Origin: Candidatus Methanomethylophilaceae archaeon
GTDB taxonomy: Archaea; Thermoplasmatota; Thermoplasmata; Methanomassiliicoccales; Methanomethylophilaceae
Direction of reading: 5' to 3'
Assembly (NCBI GenBank): GCA_028694055.1
Contig: JAQUUA010000002.1
Location: 1-41,196 of the forward strand
DNA: 41,196 nt
The position numbers were made by a program, and so were the translations under genes. The notes under the pieces are model-generated. The model did no database searches, had not been told where the DNA came from, and worked only from the letters and a program-made list of their open reading frames with translations. Positions 2,306 to 39,801 of this stretch are shown here, piece after piece. How positions within the stretch are numbered: the stretch's first letter is position 1; each line of letters opens with the position of its first letter.

Positions 2306-3376
2306 ATGTCAGAAGAGGTTATGTCCAACGCCTCCAAGGATGCGAGCCCCCCATCGGAGAGCTGGTCCCTGGAAGGCCTGCAGGACCCGGTGTTCGAGCT
2401 CTACCGGGTGCGTTTCCCCCAGGTCATGGCCGCGTACGGTGATTACGAGGTGGAGAAGACCAAGCAGGACATCGTCTATCACCTCCAGTTCTTGGAGGAG
2501 TCCGTTTGGGCCCAGGACCCTGCCTTGTTCATTGATTATGTGGTCTGGGCCAGGGTGTTGTTCAAAGGATTGGGCATACCCATGTCATGGCTCCAGGACA
2601 GCCTCCTCTGCATCCGTGATGCCCTGGGAGACTCGCCATCCGACGGGATGGCCAAGGAGCACATCGGGAAAGCCTTGATGGAGCTGCAGAAGGAGGACGC
2701 CGATGCGTCGTTGTTGAAGGTATCCTCCAGCTACCACAAGGAGATGAAGGAGTACTCGGACCGTCTGGTGGAAGGACGACGTCAGGAAGCCCGTCAAGTG
2801 GTCATGCGCATGGTCGATTCAGGCGTGAGCATCAAGGAGATCTACATGCAGGTTTTCCAGCCCGCCATGTATTGGATCGGTTGGCTCTGGCAGAACAAGA
2901 GGGTCTCCGTGGCCCAGGAGCATTACGCCACCGCCGCCACGAACCTCATCATGGCCGAGCTCTATTCCCGGGTGGCCGAATCCCCCCGCATAGGCCGTTC
3001 CCTGGTGGCCACATCCGTCTCCGGAGAGCTGCACGAGATGGGCATACGCATGGTGGCGGACATCTTCGAGATGGAGGGATGGGACACCTACTTCCTAGGG
3101 GCCAGCACTCCCAAGGACAGCGTGCTGGAGATGGTCAAGGCCCATGAGGCGGACGTCCTGGCGGTTTCCGCCACCATGACATTCCACATACTGAAGGTGA
3201 AGGAGCTCATATCCCATGTCCGCGTTGCCATGGGCGACAAGGCTCCCAAGATCATCGTGGGCGGCTACCCGTTCAAGATATCAGAGGGCCTGTGGAAGTC
3301 CGTGGGAGCAGACGGCTTCTCCGAGGACGCCGAGGCGGCAGTGGCCCTGGCCAACAAATTGGTCGAACAAAGGTGA
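2306..3376 (+). CDS. Cobalamin-binding sensor protein, CarH/LitR-like B12 photoreceptor module
   Basis: The protein has about 356 residues. An N-terminal helical domain (about 20-130) resembles those of bacterial cobalamin-binding regulators. A B12-binding-2 four-helix cap follows (about 150-225), then a Rossmann B12-binding domain (about 230-356). Counting from base 2306, the cap contains W195, nine residues, then E205-H206: exactly the W-x9-E-H signature known from adenosylcobalamin photoreceptors of the CarH/LitR family. The Rossmann domain has SGELHEMGIRMVAD, in which H243 is the expected lower axial ligand, and a distal GWDTYFLGAS loop. No DNA-binding domain is present, so it cannot act like CarH. 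A histidine kinase starts a few bases after its stop, suggesting a signalling pair. In-frame starts also exist at 2279, 2291 and 2321. I chose 2306 because a TATA-like stretch (about 2268-2279) would give a near-leaderless message there. Confidence 0.82.
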   Translation: MSEEVMSNASKDASPPSESWSLEGLQDPVFELYRVRFPQVMAAYGDYEVEKTKQDIVYHLQFLEESVWAQDPALFIDYVVWARVLFKGLGIPMSWLQDSLLCIRDALGDSPSDGMAKEHIGKALMELQKEDADASLLKVSSSYHKEMKEYSDRLVEGRRQEARQVVMRMVDSGVSIKEIYMQVFQPAMYWIGWLWQNKRVSVAQEHYATAATNLIMAELYSRVAESPRIGRSLVATSVSGELHEMGIRMVADIFEMEGWDTYFLGASTPKDSVLEMVKAHEADVLAVSATMTFHILKVKELISHVRVAMGDKAPKIIVGGYPFKISEGLWKSVGADGFSEDAEAAVALANKLVEQR

Positions 3377-3386
3377 TAGGTTGAAC

Positions 3387-4841
3387 ATGATCATCCAGAC
3401 CAGCCAAGACGGTACGATTGTCCGTTCCTGCGATGAGCAGGGGGCAGGCCTGGGCATAGAAGGCCGTTCCTTATGGGACATAATATCGATAGAGCAGATG
3501 GCAGGTCTGCAGGACTTCTTGGATGACCCCGCCTTCGGCTCCCTGTCATATCGAGAGAAGACCTTCGTGAATATCCCTGGGAAGGGGTCCTCCTTCTTGG
3601 TATCCATGATGAAAGGGAATGAGGGAGGGCTCACCGTGCTCTTGGACCAGGACCGGGCAGGACAGGCTCAGTCTCTGGCCGTGCACTTCCAGAAGGAAGG
3701 GCCAACCCGTCCGGAGGATTCCCAGATATATGAAGATCTAACCCGCATCACCAACGAGATGATGTCCATGCAGAGGCAGCTGGAGAACGCCAACCGGGAG
3801 CTGGCCTACCAGAAGGAGCGCATCCGGGTGACCATGGACAGCATCGGAGAGGGCGTGGTGTCCACCGACAAGTCCGGAAACGTGCAGTACATCAACGACC
3901 AAGGGCAAATCCTCTTGGGTCTGCAGACCTCCTGCATCGGCAAGCCGGTTCATGACGTCATACCTGGTATCCTGCATGAGGAAGAGAGCCTGGAAGGACT
4001 GATCGGAATGGCGATGGAGGACGCAGGCCAACCCATCAGGTTGCTGGACGTCACCCTCTGTTGCGACCAGCCCCCCTGCCCGGTCCTAGACATAACACTG
4101 TCGGCCATAAAGGACCGCTCCGGGGATGTGGCCGGTGGCGTGGTGGTGTTCTTCAAGGACGTATCGGAGAAGAAGAGGGCGCAGGAGGCCCTCTCCAACG
4201 CCAACCGCAAGCTAAACCTCCTGTCCAGCATCACCCGGCACGACCTCCTCAACACCCTCACGGTGCTGAACGGGTACTTGGAGCTGGCACACTCCTCGTC
4301 CATAGATGAAGTAACAAAGAGATACCTGGACAAGATGGTCCTGTCTTCAGAGAGGATGCTGGCCCAGATATCCGCCACCCGTGACTACCAGGAGGTGGGT
4401 GTCAAGGAAGCCGTCTGGGTGGACCTACCGTCAGTAATCCGGCAGGCCTCATCCCAACTGGACCTCGGCTCGATAAGCATGGATATGCAGTTGCCCGAAC
4501 AGCTACGGATATTCGCCGACCCCATGGTGAACAAGGTCTTCTACAACCTGATGGAGAACACCCTGCGCCACGGCAAGGGCGTGAGCACCATGAGCTTCCG
4601 CATCGAGCTTGAGAACAACCATCTGGAGCTGGTGTACAGCGATGACGGCGTCGGCGTGGAGGAGGAGTACAAGGAGAAGATATTCCGGAGGGAGCATTAC
4701 AGCAACACCGGTTTCGGGCTCTTCCTGTCCCGGGAGATCCTGGGCATCACCGGTATGACCATACGGGAGGATGGTGTGCCCGGCCAAGGGGCCCGCTTCC
4801 GCATACGGGTGCCTCCAGGCTCGTACAGGGGACTGGACTGA
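3387..4841 (+). CDS. PAS-domain sensor histidine kinase, partner of the B12-binding protein
   Basis: This is a cytoplasmic histidine kinase of about 484 residues with no membrane segment. The N-terminal 110 residues look like a degenerate PAS fold. A coiled-coil linker (MQRQLENANRELAYQKERI) follows, then a clear PAS domain (MDSIGEGVVSTDKSGNVQYI) and a PAC end (VVVFFKDVSEKKRA). The phospho-acceptor box is ITRHDLLNTL, the RHDxxN form common in methanogen kinases. The ATPase domain shows an N box (NLMENTLRHG), a G1 box (DDGVGVEE) and a G2 box (NTGFGLFLSREI). A ribosome site, AAAGGTGA (3369-3376), overlaps the stop of the upstream gene. ATG at 3387 or TTG at 3381 could be used. No receiver domain or response regulator is nearby. 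Confidence 0.88.
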   Translation: MIIQTSQDGTIVRSCDEQGAGLGIEGRSLWDIISIEQMAGLQDFLDDPAFGSLSYREKTFVNIPGKGSSFLVSMMKGNEGGLTVLLDQDRAGQAQSLAVHFQKEGPTRPEDSQIYEDLTRITNEMMSMQRQLENANRELAYQKERIRVTMDSIGEGVVSTDKSGNVQYINDQGQILLGLQTSCIGKPVHDVIPGILHEEESLEGLIGMAMEDAGQPIRLLDVTLCCDQPPCPVLDITLSAIKDRSGDVAGGVVVFFKDVSEKKRAQEALSNANRKLNLLSSITRHDLLNTLTVLNGYLELAHSSSIDEVTKRYLDKMVLSSERMLAQISATRDYQEVGVKEAVWVDLPSVIRQASSQLDLGSISMDMQLPEQLRIFADPMVNKVFYNLMENTLRHGKGVSTMSFRIELENNHLELVYSDDGVGVEEEYKEKIFRREHYSNTGFGLFLSREILGITGMTIREDGVPGQGARFRIRVPPGSYRGLD

Positions 4842-4889: not shown

Positions 4890-6398
4890 ATGGCGACGTC
4901 CGAAGAAGAATTCCTGAACGAGCTGACGCCGGATGAGGCGCAGGCCATATTGCAGGCCAGCATGTCCATACTCCGGCAGGAATCCTTCCCGGTGGTGGCC
5001 AAGAACGTATTCCAGGGCCTCAAGGAACAGATCGGGGCCAAGGCGGGATATGTGGCCCTCCTCTCCGATGACGGCATGGAGAACGAGATTGTTTATCTGG
5101 ACCCCGGCCATTATGACTGCCGGGTGGACGAGTCCCTTCCCATGCCCATCCGGGGGTTCCGGGCCGTGGTCTACGAATCTGGACGGGCGCAGTACTGCAA
5201 CGACTTCGACCACACGGAATACAAAGGCCTCATGCCGGACGGGCACGTCCGTCTCCGGAACGTCATGTTCACCCCTCTCATCCTGGAAGGCAAGGCCCGA
5301 GGGCTGTTGGGGCTCTCCAACAAGGAGGGGGACTTCACGGACCGCGACGCCATGTTGGCGGAGCACTTCGGTAGGCTGGCTTCTCTGGCGCTGTACAATT
5401 CCTTCAAGAACAGCGAGCTGGAGGCCAGCGAGACCCGGTGCCGTCATCTGATAGAAGGGGCCTTCGATGCCATGGTCTCCATCGACCAGGATGGGAAGGT
5501 CATCTTCTTCAACGATGCCTTCCGGAGGCTGTTGCGCCTCTCGGACGGGGAGATGCTGGGAAAGGGCATCGACGATTTGCTGAAAGCGACCGAGAGGCCC
5601 GAAGCGGAAGGCATCCACAAGGTCAAGGCCGCCCTGCCGGACGGGAGGCAGGCCTCCCTGGAGGTATCAGTCTCCAAAACTATCATGGGAGGCGAGGACG
5701 TGCAGGTGCTGGTCATAAGGGACGTGACCAAGAGCGAGGCCCTGGAGAGGAGGATGCGGCTCGTGGACCGGAAGATGGAGCTCATGGGCAAGGTCACCCG
5801 TCACGATGTGCTCAACCACATCATGGTGGTGCAGGGCTTCCTGGAGCTCTCCCACGATAGCGGGCAACCCCTGTCCGAGAGGTATTTCGAACGCATCAAC
5901 GAGGCCTTGGAGAGGATGAAGAGCCTGTATTCCCTGCAAAGGGAGTTCGAGACCCTGGGGACCGCTGCGGCGGAATGGGTGGACTTAGAGGAGAGCATGG
6001 GGCGGGCCCGTTCGCTCTTGGCTCAGGACAGCAGCGGGGTGGAGTTCCGTATCGGTGTGCAAGGGATGGTCTGGGCCGATCCGTTGTTCGACAAGGTCCT
6101 CTACAACCTGGTGCAGAACTCCCTGCAGCATGGGGAGAAAGTCTCGTTCATCGGCATCGAGGCCGTAACGAACGGCAACGAGGTGCTCATCGACGTGTAC
6201 GATGACGGCGTGGGCGTGCCAGAGGCGGACAAGAGGTCCATATTCAGCTTGGGTTTCGGGAAGAACACCGGTCAAGGGCTGTTCCTGGTGAAGGAGATCC
6301 TGGACACCTATGGCATGAGCGTGGAGGAGGCGGGGTCACCGGGAGAGGGGGCGCGCTTCCGCATCCACGTGCCTATCGGCAGCTGGCGTCTCTCATAG
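4890..6398 (+). CDS. GAF-PAS sensor histidine kinase
   Basis: This 502-residue cytoplasmic kinase is paralogous to its upstream neighbour in the C-terminal half. Domains in order are an N-terminal helix, a GAF domain (about residues 20-175, ending in GLLGLSNKEGDFTDRDAM and LASLALYNS), a PAS domain (about 190-295, FDAMVSIDQDGKVIFFNDAF), the acceptor box VTRHDVLNHI, an N box (NLVQNSLQHG), a G1 box (DDGVGVPE) and a G2 box (NTGQGLFLVKEI). The input ligand is unknown. A TATA-like AAGTATTTTACC (about 4852-4863) lies some 30 bases before the ATG and no ribosome site is evident. It may therefore have its own leaderless transcript as well as read-through from the upstream kinase. It ends 4 bp from the convergent symporter gene. 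Confidence 0.88.
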   Translation: MATSEEEFLNELTPDEAQAILQASMSILRQESFPVVAKNVFQGLKEQIGAKAGYVALLSDDGMENEIVYLDPGHYDCRVDESLPMPIRGFRAVVYESGRAQYCNDFDHTEYKGLMPDGHVRLRNVMFTPLILEGKARGLLGLSNKEGDFTDRDAMLAEHFGRLASLALYNSFKNSELEASETRCRHLIEGAFDAMVSIDQDGKVIFFNDAFRRLLRLSDGEMLGKGIDDLLKATERPEAEGIHKVKAALPDGRQASLEVSVSKTIMGGEDVQVLVIRDVTKSEALERRMRLVDRKMELMGKVTRHDVLNHIMVVQGFLELSHDSGQPLSERYFERINEALERMKSLYSLQREFETLGTAAAEWVDLEESMGRARSLLAQDSSGVEFRIGVQGMVWADPLFDKVLYNLVQNSLQHGEKVSFIGIEAVTNGNEVLIDVYDDGVGVPEADKRSIFSLGFGKNTGQGLFLVKEILDTYGMSVEEAGSPGEGARFRIHVPIGSWRLS

Positions 6399-7788: not shown

Positions 7789-8193
7789 ATGCACATGAGC
7801 ACCGAGGAAAGATTGCCGGAGACCGAGGAGGAGTGGTCGAGGAAACTGTCCAAGGAGGCCTTCCTGGTCCTTCGCCGTCGAGGGACGGAGGCGCCGTTCA
7901 CCGGTGAGTACCACCGGCATAAAGGCGATGGCATCTACCTATGCGCCGGTTGTGGGGCGCACCTCTTCGATTCCGAGCGCAAGTTCGATTCCGGAACCGG
8001 GTGGCCCAGTTTCGATTCCGCCCTTTCCGGCAAGGTGGAGGAGGAGGTCGACCGCAGCCATGGAATGAAGCGCACGGAGGTGCACTGCTCCCGTTGCGGC
8101 GGCCATCTCGGCCATGTGTTCCCTGACGGGCCCACACCCAGCGGCCAACGTTACTGCATCAACTCCGTTTCCCTGCGGTTCCAGGAACGTTGA
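7789..8193 (+). CDS. msrB: Peptide-methionine (R)-S-oxide reductase
   Basis: This 134-residue cytoplasmic enzyme reduces the R epimer of methionine sulfoxide in proteins. All MsrB hallmarks are seen. The structural zinc site has Cys pairs C52/C55 (LCAGCG) and C100/C103 (HCSRCGG). SGTGWPSF forms part of the active site. HLGHVFPDGP is present, and the catalytic C123 sits in RYCINSVSL. The resolving cysteine seen in many homologues is not obvious in the usual position, so recycling may use another thiol. ATG at 7789 or at 7795 could be the start. Oxidant-defence genes recur at 11.5-12.6 kb. Confidence 0.96.
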   Translation: MHMSTEERLPETEEEWSRKLSKEAFLVLRRRGTEAPFTGEYHRHKGDGIYLCAGCGAHLFDSERKFDSGTGWPSFDSALSGKVEEEVDRSHGMKRTEVHCSRCGGHLGHVFPDGPTPSGQRYCINSVSLRFQER

Positions 8194-9301: not shown

Positions 9302-9367
9302 TGGAGGATATTATCTCGGGCAACATGATTTATCCGTAATAGTGCATTAGCAATCCTGGTCTTGTTC

Positions 9368-11464
9368 ATGCCTAGAAGTCCCGAAGCTGTCACAGAGAGA
9401 TTGAGATGGGCTTTCGACCATGCCTCCCTGGGCATGGCCATCGCAGACTCGGACGGAAGATACTTGGATGTCAATCAGCAGTTTTCAGAGATGCTGGGGT
9501 TCAGCCGGGAGGAGCTGCTGGAGATGAACTTCATGGACATCACCGCCTCCTCCCATTCTAGCAGCGAGGAGAACCTGCAGCGTCTCCAGAGCGGGGAGGT
9601 CGACAAGCTGGTGGTGGAGAAGAGATACCGTCGCAAGGACGGTTCCGTCATCGAGGTCAAAGTCACCGTGGACATGGTCAGCAATGAAGGCCGGTCCTTC
9701 CTATTCACCCAGGTCCAGGATGTCACCGATCGGAAAAGGGCAGAGAGGAAGCTACGCAAGAAGCGCACCGAGCTATCCACCCTCATAGGGAACCTCCAGG
9801 GCATGGTCTACCGCTGCCTCCTGGACCAGGATTGGACCATGATGTATATCAGCGACCCCTGTGAGAGCATCACCGGCTACAAAGCGGAAGACCTGGTGGA
9901 CAACAGGCTGTTGTCCTATGCATCCATAATACACCCCGATGACCGGCAACGGGTGCAGGACAGCATCAAGCAGGCCATGAATGAGGGTCAAGGGTTCATG
10001 ATCCGTTACCGCATCACCCGTGCCGACGGCTCGGAGCGTTGGGTCATGGAGCAGGGCTCCGCCACCCGTTACGAGGACGAGGACACGCTCCATCTGCAAG
10101 GGTACATCAGCGACATCACCGAGCACGTGGAACTGGAACAGATGTACCAGCGCCTTTTCGACGATCTGCCCTTCGGGGTGGCGGACATATCCGCAGGCAT
10201 GGAGTTGCTGGCCATGAACCAGACATTCATCTCCATGATGGGCATAGAGTTCCCGGAGGATGGAGGCAATCCCTTGTTCCCCGTCGACAACGAGACCGAA
10301 GGCCTCATCAGCCGCAGCCTCCGGCTCGGCTCCACGTTGAACTCCGAGTTCTCCCGGCTCGGACGCACATACTCCATAACCGTCATACCACAGTCCTCCC
10401 GTCGCAACCGCAGCGTGCATGTCGTCCTGCAGGACATCACGGAGATCAAACGGACGGGGGAGCAACTGGTCCGGGAGGAGTCCCGCCTGCGTCTGTTCCT
10501 GAACTCCTTGGACCTCTTCGCCTACGTCAAGGATTCCGACCTCCGCTACGCCATGGTGAACAGCGCCTATGCCCGCTTCCTAGGATTGAGCGAGACCGAG
10601 ATAATCGGTCGCCGGCACGAGGACCTGGACACCGAGATGGATATGGAGGGCAACCTGGAAACGGATCTCAAGGTCATGGAGGAAGGCATACCTCAGATGT
10701 ATGAGACCACCATGCATGGGAAGGTTCTAAAGGTCCGCAAGTTCACCCTCGACCTCCGTGACGGACAGAACGGCGTGGGGGCCCTGATGTCCGATATAAG
10801 CGTCAGGAAGAGGATGGAGGACTCCGACGCCTTCCTGCACTACCTCCTCAGCCATGACCTGAAGAACAAGCTCACAGTCATCATGGGCTACCAGGACCTC
10901 CTGTGCCAATCCTGCGACCCGGACCAGATGGACCGGTTCCTGGAGGCCATAGAGAAGGCCTCCCAGGACGGTGTGGAGCTCATCGACAAGGTGGAGCTCA
11001 TGAAACGCCTCAGCTCCACGTCCGAGACCACGCCGGTGAACCTGCGGGGGGCCATCAAGAGGGTGGAGGCCCAGTTCCACCAGAGGTTGGAGGACGCCGG
11101 GATGACCATGCATGTGGACTATGAGTCCCTGAACGTCTCCGTACAGGGCGGCCCCCTCATACACGAGCTGTTCAGCAACCTGGTGGAGAACTGCATAAAC
11201 CATTCCAGCGGCAGCCGTATACAGATCGCCGCCCGGGACCAAGGAGAGAACGTCCTCTGTCTGGTGGAGGACGACGGCCGAGGGGTGGACGAGGCAGATA
11301 AGGCCATGCTCTTCGACCGGGGCTTCCACAAGGGTCGGAGGGCCGGTTCCGGTCTGGGTTCCTATCTGGCCCATCGTATCACCGAGTTCTATAAGGCGGA
11401 GATATTCGCCTGCGACTCCGAGATGGGCGGCCTGTGCATCGGGATACGCTTCCGCAAGAGCTGA
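9368..11464 (+). CDS. Multi-PAS sensor histidine kinase
   Basis: This cytoplasmic kinase has about 698 residues and no membrane segment. Four PAS-type units precede the kinase core: PAS1 (about 15-120, ASLGMAIADSDGRYLDVN, closing with FTQVQDVTDRKRAERKL), PAS2 (about 135-260, with DWTMMYISDPCESITGY and DGSERWVMEQGSA), PAS3 (about 265-375), and PAS4 (about 385-480, NSLDLFAYVKDSDLRYAMVN). The acceptor box is LLSHDLKNKLTVIMGY. The ATPase domain has an N box (NLVENCINHSS), a G1 box (EDDGRGVDE) and a G2 box (GSGLGSYLAHR). PAS ligands are unknown. ATG 9368 is preferred over the TTG two codons earlier. No receiver domain or regulator lies beside it. Confidence 0.88.
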   Translation: MPRSPEAVTERLRWAFDHASLGMAIADSDGRYLDVNQQFSEMLGFSREELLEMNFMDITASSHSSSEENLQRLQSGEVDKLVVEKRYRRKDGSVIEVKVTVDMVSNEGRSFLFTQVQDVTDRKRAERKLRKKRTELSTLIGNLQGMVYRCLLDQDWTMMYISDPCESITGYKAEDLVDNRLLSYASIIHPDDRQRVQDSIKQAMNEGQGFMIRYRITRADGSERWVMEQGSATRYEDEDTLHLQGYISDITEHVELEQMYQRLFDDLPFGVADISAGMELLAMNQTFISMMGIEFPEDGGNPLFPVDNETEGLISRSLRLGSTLNSEFSRLGRTYSITVIPQSSRRNRSVHVVLQDITEIKRTGEQLVREESRLRLFLNSLDLFAYVKDSDLRYAMVNSAYARFLGLSETEIIGRRHEDLDTEMDMEGNLETDLKVMEEGIPQMYETTMHGKVLKVRKFTLDLRDGQNGVGALMSDISVRKRMEDSDAFLHYLLSHDLKNKLTVIMGYQDLLCQSCDPDQMDRFLEAIEKASQDGVELIDKVELMKRLSSTSETTPVNLRGAIKRVEAQFHQRLEDAGMTMHVDYESLNVSVQGGPLIHELFSNLVENCINHSSGSRIQIAARDQGENVLCLVEDDGRGVDEADKAMLFDRGFHKGRRAGSGLGSYLAHRITEFYKAEIFACDSEMGGLCIGIRFRKS

Positions 11465-11976: not shown

Positions 11977-12558
11977 ATGAAGAAGACCATGGAGAATCTA
12001 TCCAAAGCTTTCGTGGGCGAGAGCCAAGCCCGCAACCGTTACACGATATACTCCCGCACCGCCAAGGACGAGGGGTACGAGCAGATCTCGGAGATATACC
12101 TCAAGACGGCGGAGAACGAGTGGGAGCACGCCAAATGGCTGTTCCGCATGATCAACCAGCTCAAGGGCGGGGACAAGTCCTACGATGAGATCGTCATCGA
12201 GGCAGACGTCCCTACCGTCTTCGGCAGCACCGCTGACAACCTCCGGGCATCCATCGCCGGCGAGGAGCACGAGAACACTGTGATGTACCCGGAGTTCGCC
12301 TCCGTGGCGGAGTCCGAGGGCCTTCCCGAGGTGGCTGCCCGCCTGCGGGCCATAGGACATGCCGAGAACCACCACAAGACCCGTTTCGAGATGCTCCTGG
12401 CCGCCTTGGAGGGCAAGACCCTGTTCAAGAAGGACAAGGAGGTCACCTGGGAATGCCGCAAGTGCGGTTACCAGCACACCGGTGCCGAGCCTCCGGAGAA
12501 GTGCCCATCCTGCGACCATCCCACCAAGTACTTCCAGAGAAGCTGCGACGTGTTCTGA
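11977..12558 (+). CDS. rbr: Rubrerythrin
   Basis: This 193-residue cytoplasmic non-haem iron protein reduces hydrogen peroxide in anaerobes. The N-terminal four-helix diiron domain is seen as SQARNRYTIYSRTAK, then ENEWEHAKW and EEHENTVMYPEFA, and a last helix with HAENHHKTRFEMLL supplies the remaining Glu/His ligands. The C-terminal rubredoxin-like domain has CRKCGY and CPSCDH, the four-Cys iron site. The order and length are those of classical rubrerythrin. Leader bases 11862-11976 are AT-rich with promoter-like elements and an inverted repeat. A short GC hairpin with a T-run follows the stop. With MsrB it forms the visible oxidant defence. Confidence 0.95.
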   Translation: MKKTMENLSKAFVGESQARNRYTIYSRTAKDEGYEQISEIYLKTAENEWEHAKWLFRMINQLKGGDKSYDEIVIEADVPTVFGSTADNLRASIAGEEHENTVMYPEFASVAESEGLPEVAARLRAIGHAENHHKTRFEMLLAALEGKTLFKKDKEVTWECRKCGYQHTGAEPPEKCPSCDHPTKYFQRSCDVF

Positions 12559-35157: not shown

Positions 35158-38100
35158 TTGACAAAATCGGCACTAGTGATTGGTGGAGGAATTGCAGGTA
35201 TCCAGGCTTCGTTGGATCTTGCCGACAGGGACATACATGTCTACATGGTGGAGAGAGACCCCTCCATCGGTGGCAGGATGTCCAGGTTGGACAAGACTTT
35301 CCCGACGAACGACTGTTCCGCTTGTATTCTTTCGCCCAAAATGGCAGACTGTTATGGACACCCGAACATCGACGTACTGACTTTTTCCGAAGTCGTGAAG
35401 GTGGACGGAGGACCTGGAGATTTCAAGGTCAAAGTCCTGAAGAAAGCTCGATATGTGGATATCGAGAAGTGTACCGGTTGCGGGGACTGTATTGCGAAGT
35501 GCCCCACCAAGAACATACCGGATGAGAACGAGTACGGGCTCAAGACCCGGAAGGCAGTGTTCATACCGCATGCTCAGGCCGTGCCCCGCATGGCCATCAT
35601 CGACCCCAACCACTGCCGCAAGCTTCTCAATGACAAGTGCGGCCTTTGTGAGAAGGCCTGCGGTGTCGGAGCCATCAACTACAAGGACGAGCCCAAAGAG
35701 GTTGTTCTGGAAGTGGGCTCCATCATCTGCGCCAACGGTTTCAACACCTGGGACGCCAAGATCTCCACGGAGTACGGCTACGGGCGCTTCGCCAACGTGG
35801 TCACCGCCATGGAGTACGAGCGCATGATGTGCGCCTCCGGTCCCTCCGGCGGGCACATCAAGATGCCCTCCTCCGGAGACGACCCCAAGAGGATCGCCTT
35901 CATCCAGTGCTGCGGTTCCAGGAGCGAGAAGAAGGGATGGCAGAAATACTGCTCCTCGGTGTGCTGCATGTACGCCACTAAGCAGGCCATCATCACCAAA
36001 GAGCACTCCGATGTGGACCAGGAGGACATATTCTTCATGGATATCCGGTCCTTCGGTAAGGAGTTCGAGAACTACATCCACCGCGCCCAGGACGAGTATG
36101 GCATCACCATGCACCGCTCCGCCCGTGTGGCCTCTGTGGATGAGAACCCCCTCACCAAGCACCTTTTGGTTCGTTACACGGATGAGAAGGGCGAGCCCAA
36201 GTCCCAGGAGTACGACCTGGTGGTCCTGTCCATCGGACTGAACCCGCCCGAGGGCGCCGAGGAGTTCGCAAAGATCATGGGGATCGAGCTCAACGAGTAC
36301 GGTTTCTGCGAGACCTCCATCTACGACCCCTTGGCCACCACCCGTCCGGGTGTGTACGTCACCGGCGCCTTCGCCGCCCCCAAGGACATCCCCACCTCTG
36401 TGGCGGAGGCCTCGGGTGCATCGGCCAAGGCCGGATCCCACATCGTGGACGCCAACTTCGAGCCCTGCGCTCCCAAGGAGTTCCCGACGGAGAAGGAGAC
36501 CGTTGGAGTCGAGCCCCGTGTCGGTGTCTGGGTATGTTCCTGCGGAACTAACATCGGTTCCACCGTGGACGTCCCTGCCGTGGCCGAGTACGCCTCGAAG
36601 CTGCCCGGCGTGGTGCACTCCACGACCAGCATGTACACCTGTGCCCAGGACGCGCTCAAGGAGATCACTGAGACCATCCGCGAGAAGGACCTCAACCGTG
36701 TGGTCGTCGCTTCCTGCACACCGCGTACCCATGAGCCCCTGTTCCGCAACGCCTGCCGCGAGGGTGGCCTGAACCAGTATCTGTTCAACATGGCCAACAT
36801 CCGCGACCAGTGCTCCTGGATCCACATGCACGAGCCGGCGAAGGCCACGGAGAAATCCAAGGACCTGGTCCGCATGGCTGTGGCCAAGGTGCGTCTGCTG
36901 GAGCCTTTGGAGGGTGCCAAGATACCGGTCACCAACTCTGCCGCCGTCATCGGTGGCGGTGTGACCGGCATGACCGCGGCCCTCGACATCGCTGCCCAGG
37001 GATTCCCTGTGCACCTGGTGGAGAAGTCCGACAAGCTGGGTGGCAATGCCAACAACTTCAACCACGATGAGAGCGGCGTTTCCACGGTGAAGTTCCTGAA
37101 GGACCTCGTCGCCAAGGTGGAGGCCAACAAGCTCATCACCGTGCACCTCAATGCCGAGGTCAAAGACATCCCCGGCTACGTAGGCAACTTCAAGCTGCAG
37201 ATCGGCAGCGAGGAGTTCCAGGTGGGAGCGGTCATCCTGGCCGTTGGAGCCGCCGCCTATTCCCCCAAGGAGTACGGCTACGGCAAGGACCAGAAGGTCG
37301 CCACCGCCCTGGAGGTCGAGAAGCTCATCGCCGAGAAGAAGTTCAAGGCCAAGGATGTGGCTTTCATCCAGTGCATAGGTTCCAGGAACGCGGAGACCAC
37401 CTACTGTTCCCGTGTCTGCTGCACCACTGCCCTGCGCAACGCCATAGCCATCAAGGAGGCTGACGCCAAGGCCAACGTGACCATCTTCCACAAGGACATC
37501 CGTTCCTACGGATTCCGTGAGGAGCTCTACCGCAAGGCATCCCAATTGGGTGTGCGCTTCCTGCGCTTCCCGGATGAGACCCAGCCGGAGTACGACGGCA
37601 AGTCCGTCAAGGCCTTCGACAACATCCTGGGCGCCGAGGTTTCCGTGCCCGTGGACTGCCTGGTGCTGAGCACCGGCATCGCCCCCGAGCGCGAGCAGAA
37701 GGAGGAGCTGGCCAAGATGTTGAAGATACCCATCAGCAAGGACGGGTTCTTCTTCGAGGCCCACCAGAAGCTCAGGCCCGTGGACTTCGCCACCGAAGGC
37801 GTCTACGTGGCTGGATTGGCTCACTGGCCCAAGCACATCGACGAGTGCATCGCCCAGGCATCTGGAGCTGCCTCCCGTGCCCTCACCGTGATCTCCAAGT
37901 CCGAGCTCGTGTCCGAGGGAATCATCGCCAGCGTCAACGACAAGTACTGCGACGGCTGCGGTGTGTGCGAAGGCTGCTGCGAGTACAGCGCCATCGAGAT
38001 CGTGGAAGTGGAGCCCGGAAAGCTCAGGAGCGTCGTCAACGCCGGTCTCTGCAAGGGATGCGGCTGCTGTGTCGCTGCCTGCCCGTCCGGTGCCATGGAG

Positions 38101-38172
38101 CAGAAGGGATTCAAGAACAGCCAGATACAGGCCGAGATCGACGCCTGTCTGGACGAAGCCCTGGGAGCGTGA
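35158..38172 (+). CDS. hdrA: Heterodisulfide reductase subunit A, tandem (double) form
   Basis: This 1004-residue iron-sulfur flavoprotein would bifurcate electrons from the hydrogenase between ferredoxin and heterodisulfide. It is longer than the usual form of about 650 residues because it contains two HdrA-like halves. Half 1 (1-440) has a first FAD motif (VIGGGIAGI, 7-15) and an inserted ferredoxin domain with CTGCGDCIAKCP (105-116) and CGLCEKAC (161-168). Half 2 (455-1004) has the HdrA Cys start VCSCGTNIG (459-467), a second FAD motif (AVIGGGVTGM, near 598) and two C-terminal clusters, YCDGCGVCEGCC (near 930) and CKGCGCCVAACP (near 965). Both halves carry FIQCxGSR then YCSxVCC. The start is TTG 35158 with GGAGG at the right distance. 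mvhD follows 4 bp later. Confidence 0.93.
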   Translation: MTKSALVIGGGIAGIQASLDLADRDIHVYMVERDPSIGGRMSRLDKTFPTNDCSACILSPKMADCYGHPNIDVLTFSEVVKVDGGPGDFKVKVLKKARYVDIEKCTGCGDCIAKCPTKNIPDENEYGLKTRKAVFIPHAQAVPRMAIIDPNHCRKLLNDKCGLCEKACGVGAINYKDEPKEVVLEVGSIICANGFNTWDAKISTEYGYGRFANVVTAMEYERMMCASGPSGGHIKMPSSGDDPKRIAFIQCCGSRSEKKGWQKYCSSVCCMYATKQAIITKEHSDVDQEDIFFMDIRSFGKEFENYIHRAQDEYGITMHRSARVASVDENPLTKHLLVRYTDEKGEPKSQEYDLVVLSIGLNPPEGAEEFAKIMGIELNEYGFCETSIYDPLATTRPGVYVTGAFAAPKDIPTSVAEASGASAKAGSHIVDANFEPCAPKEFPTEKETVGVEPRVGVWVCSCGTNIGSTVDVPAVAEYASKLPGVVHSTTSMYTCAQDALKEITETIREKDLNRVVVASCTPRTHEPLFRNACREGGLNQYLFNMANIRDQCSWIHMHEPAKATEKSKDLVRMAVAKVRLLEPLEGAKIPVTNSAAVIGGGVTGMTAALDIAAQGFPVHLVEKSDKLGGNANNFNHDESGVSTVKFLKDLVAKVEANKLITVHLNAEVKDIPGYVGNFKLQIGSEEFQVGAVILAVGAAAYSPKEYGYGKDQKVATALEVEKLIAEKKFKAKDVAFIQCIGSRNAETTYCSRVCCTTALRNAIAIKEADAKANVTIFHKDIRSYGFREELYRKASQLGVRFLRFPDETQPEYDGKSVKAFDNILGAEVSVPVDCLVLSTGIAPEREQKEELAKMLKIPISKDGFFFEAHQKLRPVDFATEGVYVAGLAHWPKHIDECIAQASGAASRALTVISKSELVSEGIIASVNDKYCDGCGVCEGCCEYSAIEIVEVEPGKLRSVVNAGLCKGCGCCVAACPSGAMEQKGFKNSQIQAEIDACLDEALGA

Positions 38173-38176
38173 TCAC

Positions 38177-38596
38177 ATGAGTGAAACATTCGAACCGAAA
38201 ATCATAGCGTTCTGCTGCAACTGGTGCTCCTACGCCGGTGCCGACGGCGCCGGTGTGGCCAGGCTGCAGATGCCCACGAACTTCCGCATCATCCGTGTGA
38301 TGTGCTCCGCACGCGTGGACCCCGAGCATGTGCTCAGGGCCTTCGCCAAGGGCGCCGACGGAGTGGTCATCCTGGGATGCCACCCCGCCGACTGCCACTA
38401 CATCGGAGGCAACTATCGGGCCAGGAGGAGGATCGCCCTTCTCCGCTTCGTGCTGGAGGAGTACGGCTTCGACCCCAAGAGGTTGAAGCTGGAGTGGGTC
38501 TCCGCTTCCGAGGGAGAGAAGTTCCAGACCACCATCACCGAGTTCGTGAACACCATCAAGGAGCTCGGCCCCACCCCCCTTGAGGAGGCAAACTGA
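38177..38596 (+). CDS. mvhD: F420-non-reducing hydrogenase iron-sulfur subunit D
   Basis: This 139-residue subunit carries a [2Fe-2S] centre and links the hydrogenase to HdrA. Cys ligands appear in FCCNWCSYAGAD near the N terminus, VMCSAR, and GCHPADCHYIGGNY in the middle, all characteristic of the MvhD/HdrA-linked delta subunit. The frame is open upstream inside hdrA. ATG 38177, 4 bp after the hdrA stop, gives the normal length. Its stop overlaps the mvhG start by one base (TGATG). Confidence 0.95.
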   Translation: MSETFEPKIIAFCCNWCSYAGADGAGVARLQMPTNFRIIRVMCSARVDPEHVLRAFAKGADGVVILGCHPADCHYIGGNYRARRRIALLRFVLEEYGFDPKRLKLEWVSASEGEKFQTTITEFVNTIKELGPTPLEEAN

Positions 38597-39801
38597 TGTC
38601 ATTCCTAGACAAGATAAAAGCCAGACTGGGCAAGAAGGTCGGAGACTCTATGGAGAAGGCCGCCGTACCGGCTAAGGAGGAGGCCCCTAAGAAGGCCGCC
38701 GCCCCTGCCAAGGAGGCCGCCCCCGCAGCCCCCGCAGCCCTGTCCCCCGAGCTAGCTGCCCTGTTGCCCGGAGCCCCTCCGGGCGGCAAGATCAAGTTCG
38801 CTCACTACTGGGGAGCAGCCTGCGGAGGATGCGACGTGTCCATGTTGGACATCGATGAGAAGATCCTCACCGTGGGCGACATGGTGGACATAGTGTTCTG
38901 GCCCATTGCCGCCGATGGAAAGGTCTCTGATGTAGAGGCCCTGGAGGACGGGGAGATAACCCTGACCCTCTTCAACGGTGCAGTGCGCAACAGCGAGAAT
39001 GAGCACATGGCCCACCTGCTGCGCCAGAAGTCCACTATAATGGTGGCCTACGGCAGCTGCGCCATGCTGGGCGGCATACCCGGCTTGGCCAACACCACCA
39101 ACACCAAGGAGATACTGGACTACGTGTACACCAAGACCCCCACCATGGGGGCTTTCCAGAAGACCCAGAAATCCCCGGTCATACCTCAGACCTTGTACAA
39201 GGCTCCCGAGGGCGACCTGGATCTACCGGTCCTCTATGACACCGTCAAGGCTCTCGACCAAGTGTTGGATGTGGACTACTATGTGCCGGGTTGCCCGCCC
39301 ACCCAGAAGACCATCGCGGTTCTCCTGGGCGCGCTCATCGACCACGTGTACAACGGTGCCCCGCTGCCCCCCAAGGGTACGGTCATCGGTGCCGAAGACA
39401 AGACGCTCTGCGAGGAGTGTCCGAGAAAGAAAGAGAACCGGAGGATCACCAAGGTCGTGGAGCCCCACGAGATCGATGTCGATCCCGAGCTCTGCCTCAT
39501 GGACCAAGGCATCATCTGCCTCGGTCCGGCCACCCGCGCCGGCTGCGGTGCCCCATGCACACAGGCAGGACAACCCTGCCGCGGTTGCTACGGCCCCACC
39601 AGTGCAGTGGATGAGCAGGGTGCCAGTATGCTCACCGCCCTGGCCTCGCTCTTCCCGGTTCTGGATGACGACCCCAACATGGGGGAGGACCAGATCATCG
39701 ACATCATGAGGCAGGTGAAGGATCCCTTGGGATACTTCTACCAGTTCAGCATGGCCAAGTCTCTGATTCGCCGGTCCGTCAAGGAGAAGGGGGGTAAGTA
39801 A
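38596..39801 (+). CDS. mvhG: F420-non-reducing hydrogenase small subunit, with Ala/Pro/Lys-rich N-terminal extension
   Basis: This 401-residue small subunit of the cytoplasmic [NiFe]-hydrogenase carries the electron-relay clusters. The proximal cluster is in HYWGAACGGCDVSML (about 69-83), with YGSCAMLGG, VPGCPPTQK and the later clusters in CEECPRKK, CLMDQGIICLG, GCGAPC and CRGCYGPT. Homologues begin close to the proximal cluster motif. Here about 60 extra residues come first: a short basic helix (FLDKIKARLGKKV) and a linker rich in Ala, Pro and Lys with APAKE repeats. The extension keeps the operon's reading frame and spacing, so it is part of the gene. Its role is unknown; a flexible tether is possible. 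Confidence 0.93.
   Translation: MSFLDKIKARLGKKVGDSMEKAAVPAKEEAPKKAAAPAKEAAPAAPAALSPELAALLPGAPPGGKIKFAHYWGAACGGCDVSMLDIDEKILTVGDMVDIVFWPIAADGKVSDVEALEDGEITLTLFNGAVRNSENEHMAHLLRQKSTIMVAYGSCAMLGGIPGLANTTNTKEILDYVYTKTPTMGAFQKTQKSPVIPQTLYKAPEGDLDLPVLYDTVKALDQVLDVDYYVPGCPPTQKTIAVLLGALIDHVYNGAPLPPKGTVIGAEDKTLCEECPRKKENRRITKVVEPHEIDVDPELCLMDQGIICLGPATRAGCGAPCTQAGQPCRGCYGPTSAVDEQGASMLTALASLFPVLDDDPNMGEDQIIDIMRQVKDPLGYFYQFSMAKSLIRRSVKEKGGK

Follow-up and report, generated by a model that had tools for sequence, protein, structure and literature searches.

A candidate light-sensing unit of a photocobilin and a separate histidine kinase in a methanogenic archaeon

What would a cobalamin-binding protein and the histidine kinase encoded directly behind it sense in a methanogen? 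The question is raised by a locus in Candidatus Methanomethylophilaceae archaeon (GCA_028694055.1, contig JAQUUA010000002.1), where a first-pass annotation made from the letters of the window (the whole stretch of DNA analysed, 41,196 nucleotides) had proposed a B12-based light sensor of the CarH/LitR type that signals through a kinase. Here we present an analysis of the two genes, which are read, by sequence and model, as a two-gene light-sensing unit with light as the likely physiological signal (probability about 0.6). This reading is based on the domain content, the pocket residues, the gene pairing and the linker of the partner kinase, from which we infer the cofactor identity, the photochemistry, the kinase contact and the output of the unit.

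Domains and pocket residues of gene 1

The features of gene 1, in positions of the window and residues of the predicted protein, are as follows.

2306..3376, + strand: gene 1, predicted photoglobin-B12 protein of the photocobilin type, 356 aa (open reading frame, Pfam, PDB matches, model)
2372..2698, + strand: photoglobin (phycobiliprotein-like globin) domain, residues ~23-131 (Pfam, profile, fold matches)
2459..2470, + strand: T52-K-Q54-D55, counterpart of the CxRD/CxQD bilin motif (PDB and family alignment; PMC10979010, PMC10151467)
2546..2548, + strand: W81, aligned with Trp296 of SasPcob (PDB and family alignment)
2735..2974, + strand: B12 helical cap, residues 144-223, with G192/W195 and E205-H206 (Pfam, alignment, model)
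2888..2923, + strand: W195-x9-E205-H206 (translation, family alignment)
2999..3370, + strand: Rossmann B12-binding domain, residues 232-355 (Pfam, model)
3023..3034, + strand: G240-E-L-H243 (GxxH) with the lower axial ligand His, aligned with His108 of SasPcob (translation, PDB alignment, family alignment)
3098..3112, + strand: G265-A-S-T-P269, GxxxP signature (translation, family alignment)

The start codon lies at 2306 or at an ATG nearby (2279, 2321). Pfam places B12-binding_2 at residues 148-219 (7.4e-14) and B12-binding at residues 232-346 (2.1e-21), and W195, E205, H206 and the axial-ligand His in SGELHEMG stand where the first-pass annotation had put them. Its view of W-x9-E-H as a photoreceptor hallmark agrees with a light-type B12 domain, the spacing being that of Trp61, Glu71 and His72 in SasPcob (PMC10979010). 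The published signature of light-responsive B12 proteins (GxxW, EH, GxxH and GxxxP; PMC11796333) is complete in the gene 1 protein (G192/W195, E205-H206, G240/H243 and G265/P269 as SignatureFinder motifs), and both elements of the photocobilin motif test, W-x9-E-H and E/D-x-H, are present.

Conservation of these residues in homologues had been named in advance as a test of the light-sensor reading. Of the 86 relatives in the family alignment, 85 have the W, 85 the E and 84 the H, the W195 column (like that of E241/H243) being partly selected because the patterns of the genome scan that supplied most relatives contained these residues; E205, H206, D55 and W81 lay outside the patterns. At the same sites, eight methyltransferase corrinoid proteins encoded in related genomes have Y, F or W for the W and V, L, I or Y for the E and H. 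Since the three residues are kept in relatives while the corrinoid proteins differ there, W-x9-E-H is not a chance occurrence. It is scarcely credible that gene 1 itself encodes a methyltransferase corrinoid protein that merely happens to have a kinase in its vicinity: the B12 fold is common to both kinds of protein and NCBIfam gives MtgC-like matches, weak and far below cut-off, but the corrinoid proteins lack the light-signature residues, gene 1 has a globin domain and its pairing with a kinase is conserved. This identity was rejected on the light-signature residues and the conserved pairing.

The closest solved structures are those of photocobilins in the dark and light states (8j2x/8j2w, 4e-29), with CarH at 1.6e-06; the full-length model (pLDDT 91.3, pTM 0.88) likewise has photocobilin 8j2w as its best fold match. 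To judge by its sequence, gene 1 almost certainly belongs to the photocobilin family. Of the earlier CarH/LitR assignment the light-type B12 domain stands, but photocobilins are the closer match and the globin had been overlooked. Pfam agrees that there is no DNA-binding domain, and the N-terminal ~140 residues, undescribed in that annotation, are a globin; on these two grounds a truncated CarH was rejected.

The evidence for the globin is clear for the family and weak for the window protein taken alone. PF00502 (Pfam Phycobilisome) is found in 29/41 family N-termini at E <= 0.01, the window protein scoring 0.0068, below the Pfam cut-off, and a profile of the 41 N-termini matches the photocobilin globin (4e-09) and allophycocyanin (2.9e-08). 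Residues 44-123 of gene 1 match the C-terminal biliverdin-binding globin of photocobilins with 14.5 bits, which is not significant by itself. When the model of the N-terminal domain (pLDDT 86.8) is compared with known folds, phycobiliproteins rank first, with modest scores (TM ~0.6, best E 3.4e-03).

In the solved photocobilin SasPcob, biliverdin is held by Asp270 and Trp296 (PMC10979010). D55 of gene 1 falls in the Asp270 column, as does the His that replaces Asp270 in AbPcob (alignment with PMC10979010; the 8j2x chain numbering, offset by 5 from that of the paper, was fixed by Trp61, Glu71, His72 and His108). Asp is found at the D55 site in 78/81 relatives and Trp at the W81 site in 81/81. 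Three residues before D55 the family has mostly Ser, Cys (20 relatives) or Thr, and the window protein has Thr (T52); because Thr occupies the Cys position, any bilin in the gene 1 globin would be non-covalent. His137 of SasPcob, which contacts biliverdin from the opposite subunit, is reported for SasPcob only and is not a family criterion; its counterpart in gene 1 is S272, and the residues common in the family at this site do not include His.

The partner kinase and the distribution of the pair

Downstream of gene 1 the following features were identified.

3371..3377, + strand: AGGTGAT, Shine-Dalgarno-like, overlapping the gene 1 stop and upstream of ATG 3387 (reading of the sequence, putative)
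3387..4841, + strand: gene 2, probable partner histidine kinase with a diverged N-terminal region, linker, PAS, HisKA (RHDLLN) and HATPase_c (open reading frame, Pfam, profiles)
3726..3809, + strand: conserved linker (YEDLTRITNEMMSMQRQLENANRELAYQ), common to partner kinases of other photocobilins (profile matches)
4239..4241, + strand: predicted phospho-acceptor His in RHDLLN (H-box match)
4890..6398, + strand: gene 3, second kinase (GAF-PAS-HK, RHDVLN), 48 bases downstream of the partner kinase (Pfam, H-box)

A PAS kinase of the RHDxxN type had been reported within a few bases of gene 1, and this is correct: ATG 3387, 10 bases past the gene 1 stop, is a likelier start than TTG 3381, and the H-box reads RHDLLN. 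The placement of AGGTGAT over the gene 1 stop suggests coupled translation.

That the kinase is the partner of gene 1 had been proposed from gene order and now has further backing. A same-strand kinase lies directly behind the photocobilin gene in 74/82 loci with room for one, as against 49/563 for other genes there, the kinases being recognised by a profile built from the window and archaeal kinases and loci of related species not being independent; persistence of the kinase beside the sensor was another of the tests named beforehand. Partner kinases also have an N-terminal module and linker in common, found in 76/154 kinase ORFs. Once assigned partners are set aside, the only strong module matches left are to additional genes within two of the photocobilin loci (L104, L107), and the next-best match has an E-value of 3e-4. 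The window kinase matches the partner profile through its linker (1.4e-06 and, in a second comparison, 1.6e-09); its first ~110 residues match the partner module at E 0.006, inside the control background. RHDxxN-type H-boxes are found in the partners of three Methanomicrobiales and of the host's family, AHDLRN or a similar box predominates among the bacterial partner kinases matched, and the Lokiarchaeote partner has SHELKNP; an exchange of the kinase core, with the linker kept, would reasonably account for these sequences. On the sequence evidence, gene 2 is very probably the conserved partner of the gene 1 photocobilin.

Gene 3 (31% identical to the partner kinase) is possibly a third gene of the unit; a second kinase lies behind the partner kinase in 21/64 loci of relatives. 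A further kinase gene close by (9362-11464) encodes a multi-PAS histidine kinase. No response regulator gene was seen beside the gene 1-gene 2 pair. The host has 11 receiver-domain matches, two of which fall in short proteins of 137 and 128 aa, and all of them lie away from the pair.

The sensor-kinase unit is rare in the host's order and otherwise mainly bacterial. A match occurs in five of 147 genomes of the order. Besides the host these comprise three genomes of a single other genus, in all of which the kinase overlaps or adjoins the photocobilin gene, and a fifth in which no kinase lies beside it. The tree does not place the window gene and gives no evidence that it was acquired by a separate recent transfer; its grouping with the order's other carriers in one clade is not rejected (p-AU 0.97). 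In the genome scan, which is a sample rather than an exhaustive count because it keeps 80 loci and relies on motif patterns, the relatives listed are mostly bacterial (Anaerolineae, Thermodesulfobacteriota, Azospirillum, Paenibacillus, Heliobacterium, Bacteroidales and others), and the archaeal ones listed outside the order are three Methanomicrobiales and one Lokiarchaeote. An archaea-only system was rejected on this account. The proposal of an archaeal B12 sensor therefore stands as regards presence in a methanogen but not as regards specificity, the unit being widespread in bacteria.

Three deviating loci were observed. In a related genome (L026, 687-1346) the photocobilin adjoins a DUF1638 protein and has no neighbouring kinase. 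In a genome of the same phylum (L028) a B12 protein with the W, E and H and no globin is followed by a kinase and sits on a long tree branch. A globin-B12 protein of the same phylum (L027) has E-Y in place of E-H and no same-strand kinase alongside.

Host, cofactor supply and the probable signal

For the host there is a draft genome with a completeness of 84% and a contamination of 4.7%. It contains mcrA, and the contig of the window carries exosome, SBDS, proteasome alpha and B-type polymerase (PolB) genes, in keeping with the earlier claim of a methanogen host. A contaminating contig was rejected on these archaeal core genes and on the G+C of the pair, which resembles that of its neighbours. 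Elsewhere in the window (35158-39801) a large FAD/4Fe-4S oxidoreductase of 1004 aa, whose domain content is HdrA-like, is followed by an Oxidored_q6 protein. A CobA/BtuR cob(I)alamin adenosyltransferase is encoded in the host genome (4e-63); the PduO type was not found there. A search for canonical heme oxygenase (PF01126) gave no match in any of the five carriers within the host's order, some of whose genomes are drafts, and matches in just 7/45 other carrier genomes (loci L029-L105), several of them drafts, in which the bilin-pocket residues are nearly invariant. As a bilin source, no HutW/ChuW-type enzyme scored over cut-off in 17 genomes. Conservation of the bilin pocket where heme oxygenase is not found implies that the pocket binds another tetrapyrrole or has a different role. 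We consider it unlikely, if conceivable, that in the methanogen relay the globin binds a linear tetrapyrrole produced by a route other than heme oxygenase, perhaps an oxygen-independent chromophore common to many anaerobic carriers.

These observations bear on what the unit responds to. Methanogens usually live in the dark, which counts against a light sensor. A possible, though not the favoured, alternative is that the pair reports cobamide status, the availability of adenosylcobalamin or the ligand or redox state of a corrinoid being passed to the kinase, with photolability incidental and the globin structural or regulatory. In its favour, this methanogen and related genomes encode corrinoid proteins, the methyltransferases of the host need corrinoids, heme oxygenase was not found in the host, a kinase output suits nutrient sensing, and AbPcob retains its globin despite weak biliverdin binding (PMC10979010). 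Against this, carriers such as the phototroph Heliobacterium, Azospirillum and Paenibacillus have no common methylotrophic physiology, and the full light signature of the adenosyl pocket is retained together with the D and W residues of the globin.

Quite improbable is a sensor of oxygen or photo-oxidative stress, in which photolysis or oxidation of the bound B12 would report light plus oxygen together. TtCarH monomerisation is oxygen-dependent, and CtMerR crystals lit without oxygen changed locally and did not monomerise (PMC11796333). Genes close by encode a rubrerythrin (11977-12558) and a methionine sulfoxide reductase-like protein with a SelR domain (7789-8193), but anaerobes commonly carry stress genes.

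In the preferred light-sensing reading, adenosylcobalamin would be bound between the Rossmann domain, whose H243 would be the lower ligand, and the helical cap, and W195 and E205-H206 would surround the upper adenosyl group; the N-terminal globin, with D55 and W81 and with Thr in place of Cys, probably holds a linear tetrapyrrole non-covalently. Light, acting directly or via the bilin, would break the Co-C bond, the adenosyl group would leave, and its loss would change the cap and the oligomer state. Residue 196 of gene 1 is Gln, as opposed to His132 in CarH, which makes the bis-His light state; SasPcob also has Gln at this site (PMC11796333). Because of Gln196, a water- or hydroxide-bound light state like that of SasPcob is likelier than the bis-His state of CarH. 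The change in the sensor would be passed to the soluble gene 2 kinase, possibly to the gene 3 kinase too, and may alter phosphorylation of an unlinked response regulator.

Comparison with known systems

Gene 1 resembles CarH/LitR and CtMerR in the B12 domain, W-x9-E-H and the axial His; compared with these it has no MerR DNA-binding domain, an extra globin, Q196 for His132 of CarH, and predicted signalling through a kinase. BBAG-2 globins, encoded beside separate B12 proteins (PMC10151467), are likewise related bilin-binding globins associated with a B12 protein, but there the genes are separate and the genome has a bilin reductase or heme oxygenase, whereas in gene 1 the two parts are fused and heme oxygenase was not found in the host.

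The closest likeness is to the photocobilins SasPcob (8J2W/8J2X) and AbDPcob (8J2Y) (PMC10979010), which combine a globin and a B12 domain with W-x9-E-H and an E-x-H lower ligand; SasPcob further resembles gene 1 in the Asp and Trp of the biliverdin pocket and the Gln after Trp. The globin sits in front of the B12 domain in gene 1 and behind it in SasPcob, and photocobilin groups exist with the B12 domain at either end (PMC10979010). These photocobilins are standalone or fused to a diguanylate cyclase, whereas the output of gene 1 is apparently a separate kinase, and gene 1 further differs in its archaeal host, in which heme oxygenase was not found. The main text of the two photocobilin papers mentions neither archaea nor histidine kinases; priority for the pairing is not claimed. 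The photoglobins of Schneider et al. 2022 (discussed in PMC10151467 and PMC10979010) are reportedly non-heme globins coupled to B12 domains and predicted to sense light in signalling systems; gene 1 has the same coupling and differs in Thr for Cys in the CxQD motif.

The photocobilin family is already described, and what is variant here is the split of sensor and kinase, with an RHDxxN kinase core, plus the host. If the pair works as predicted, a methanogenic archaeon would sense light by means of B12, and photocobilins would gain a dedicated kinase as a defined route of output.
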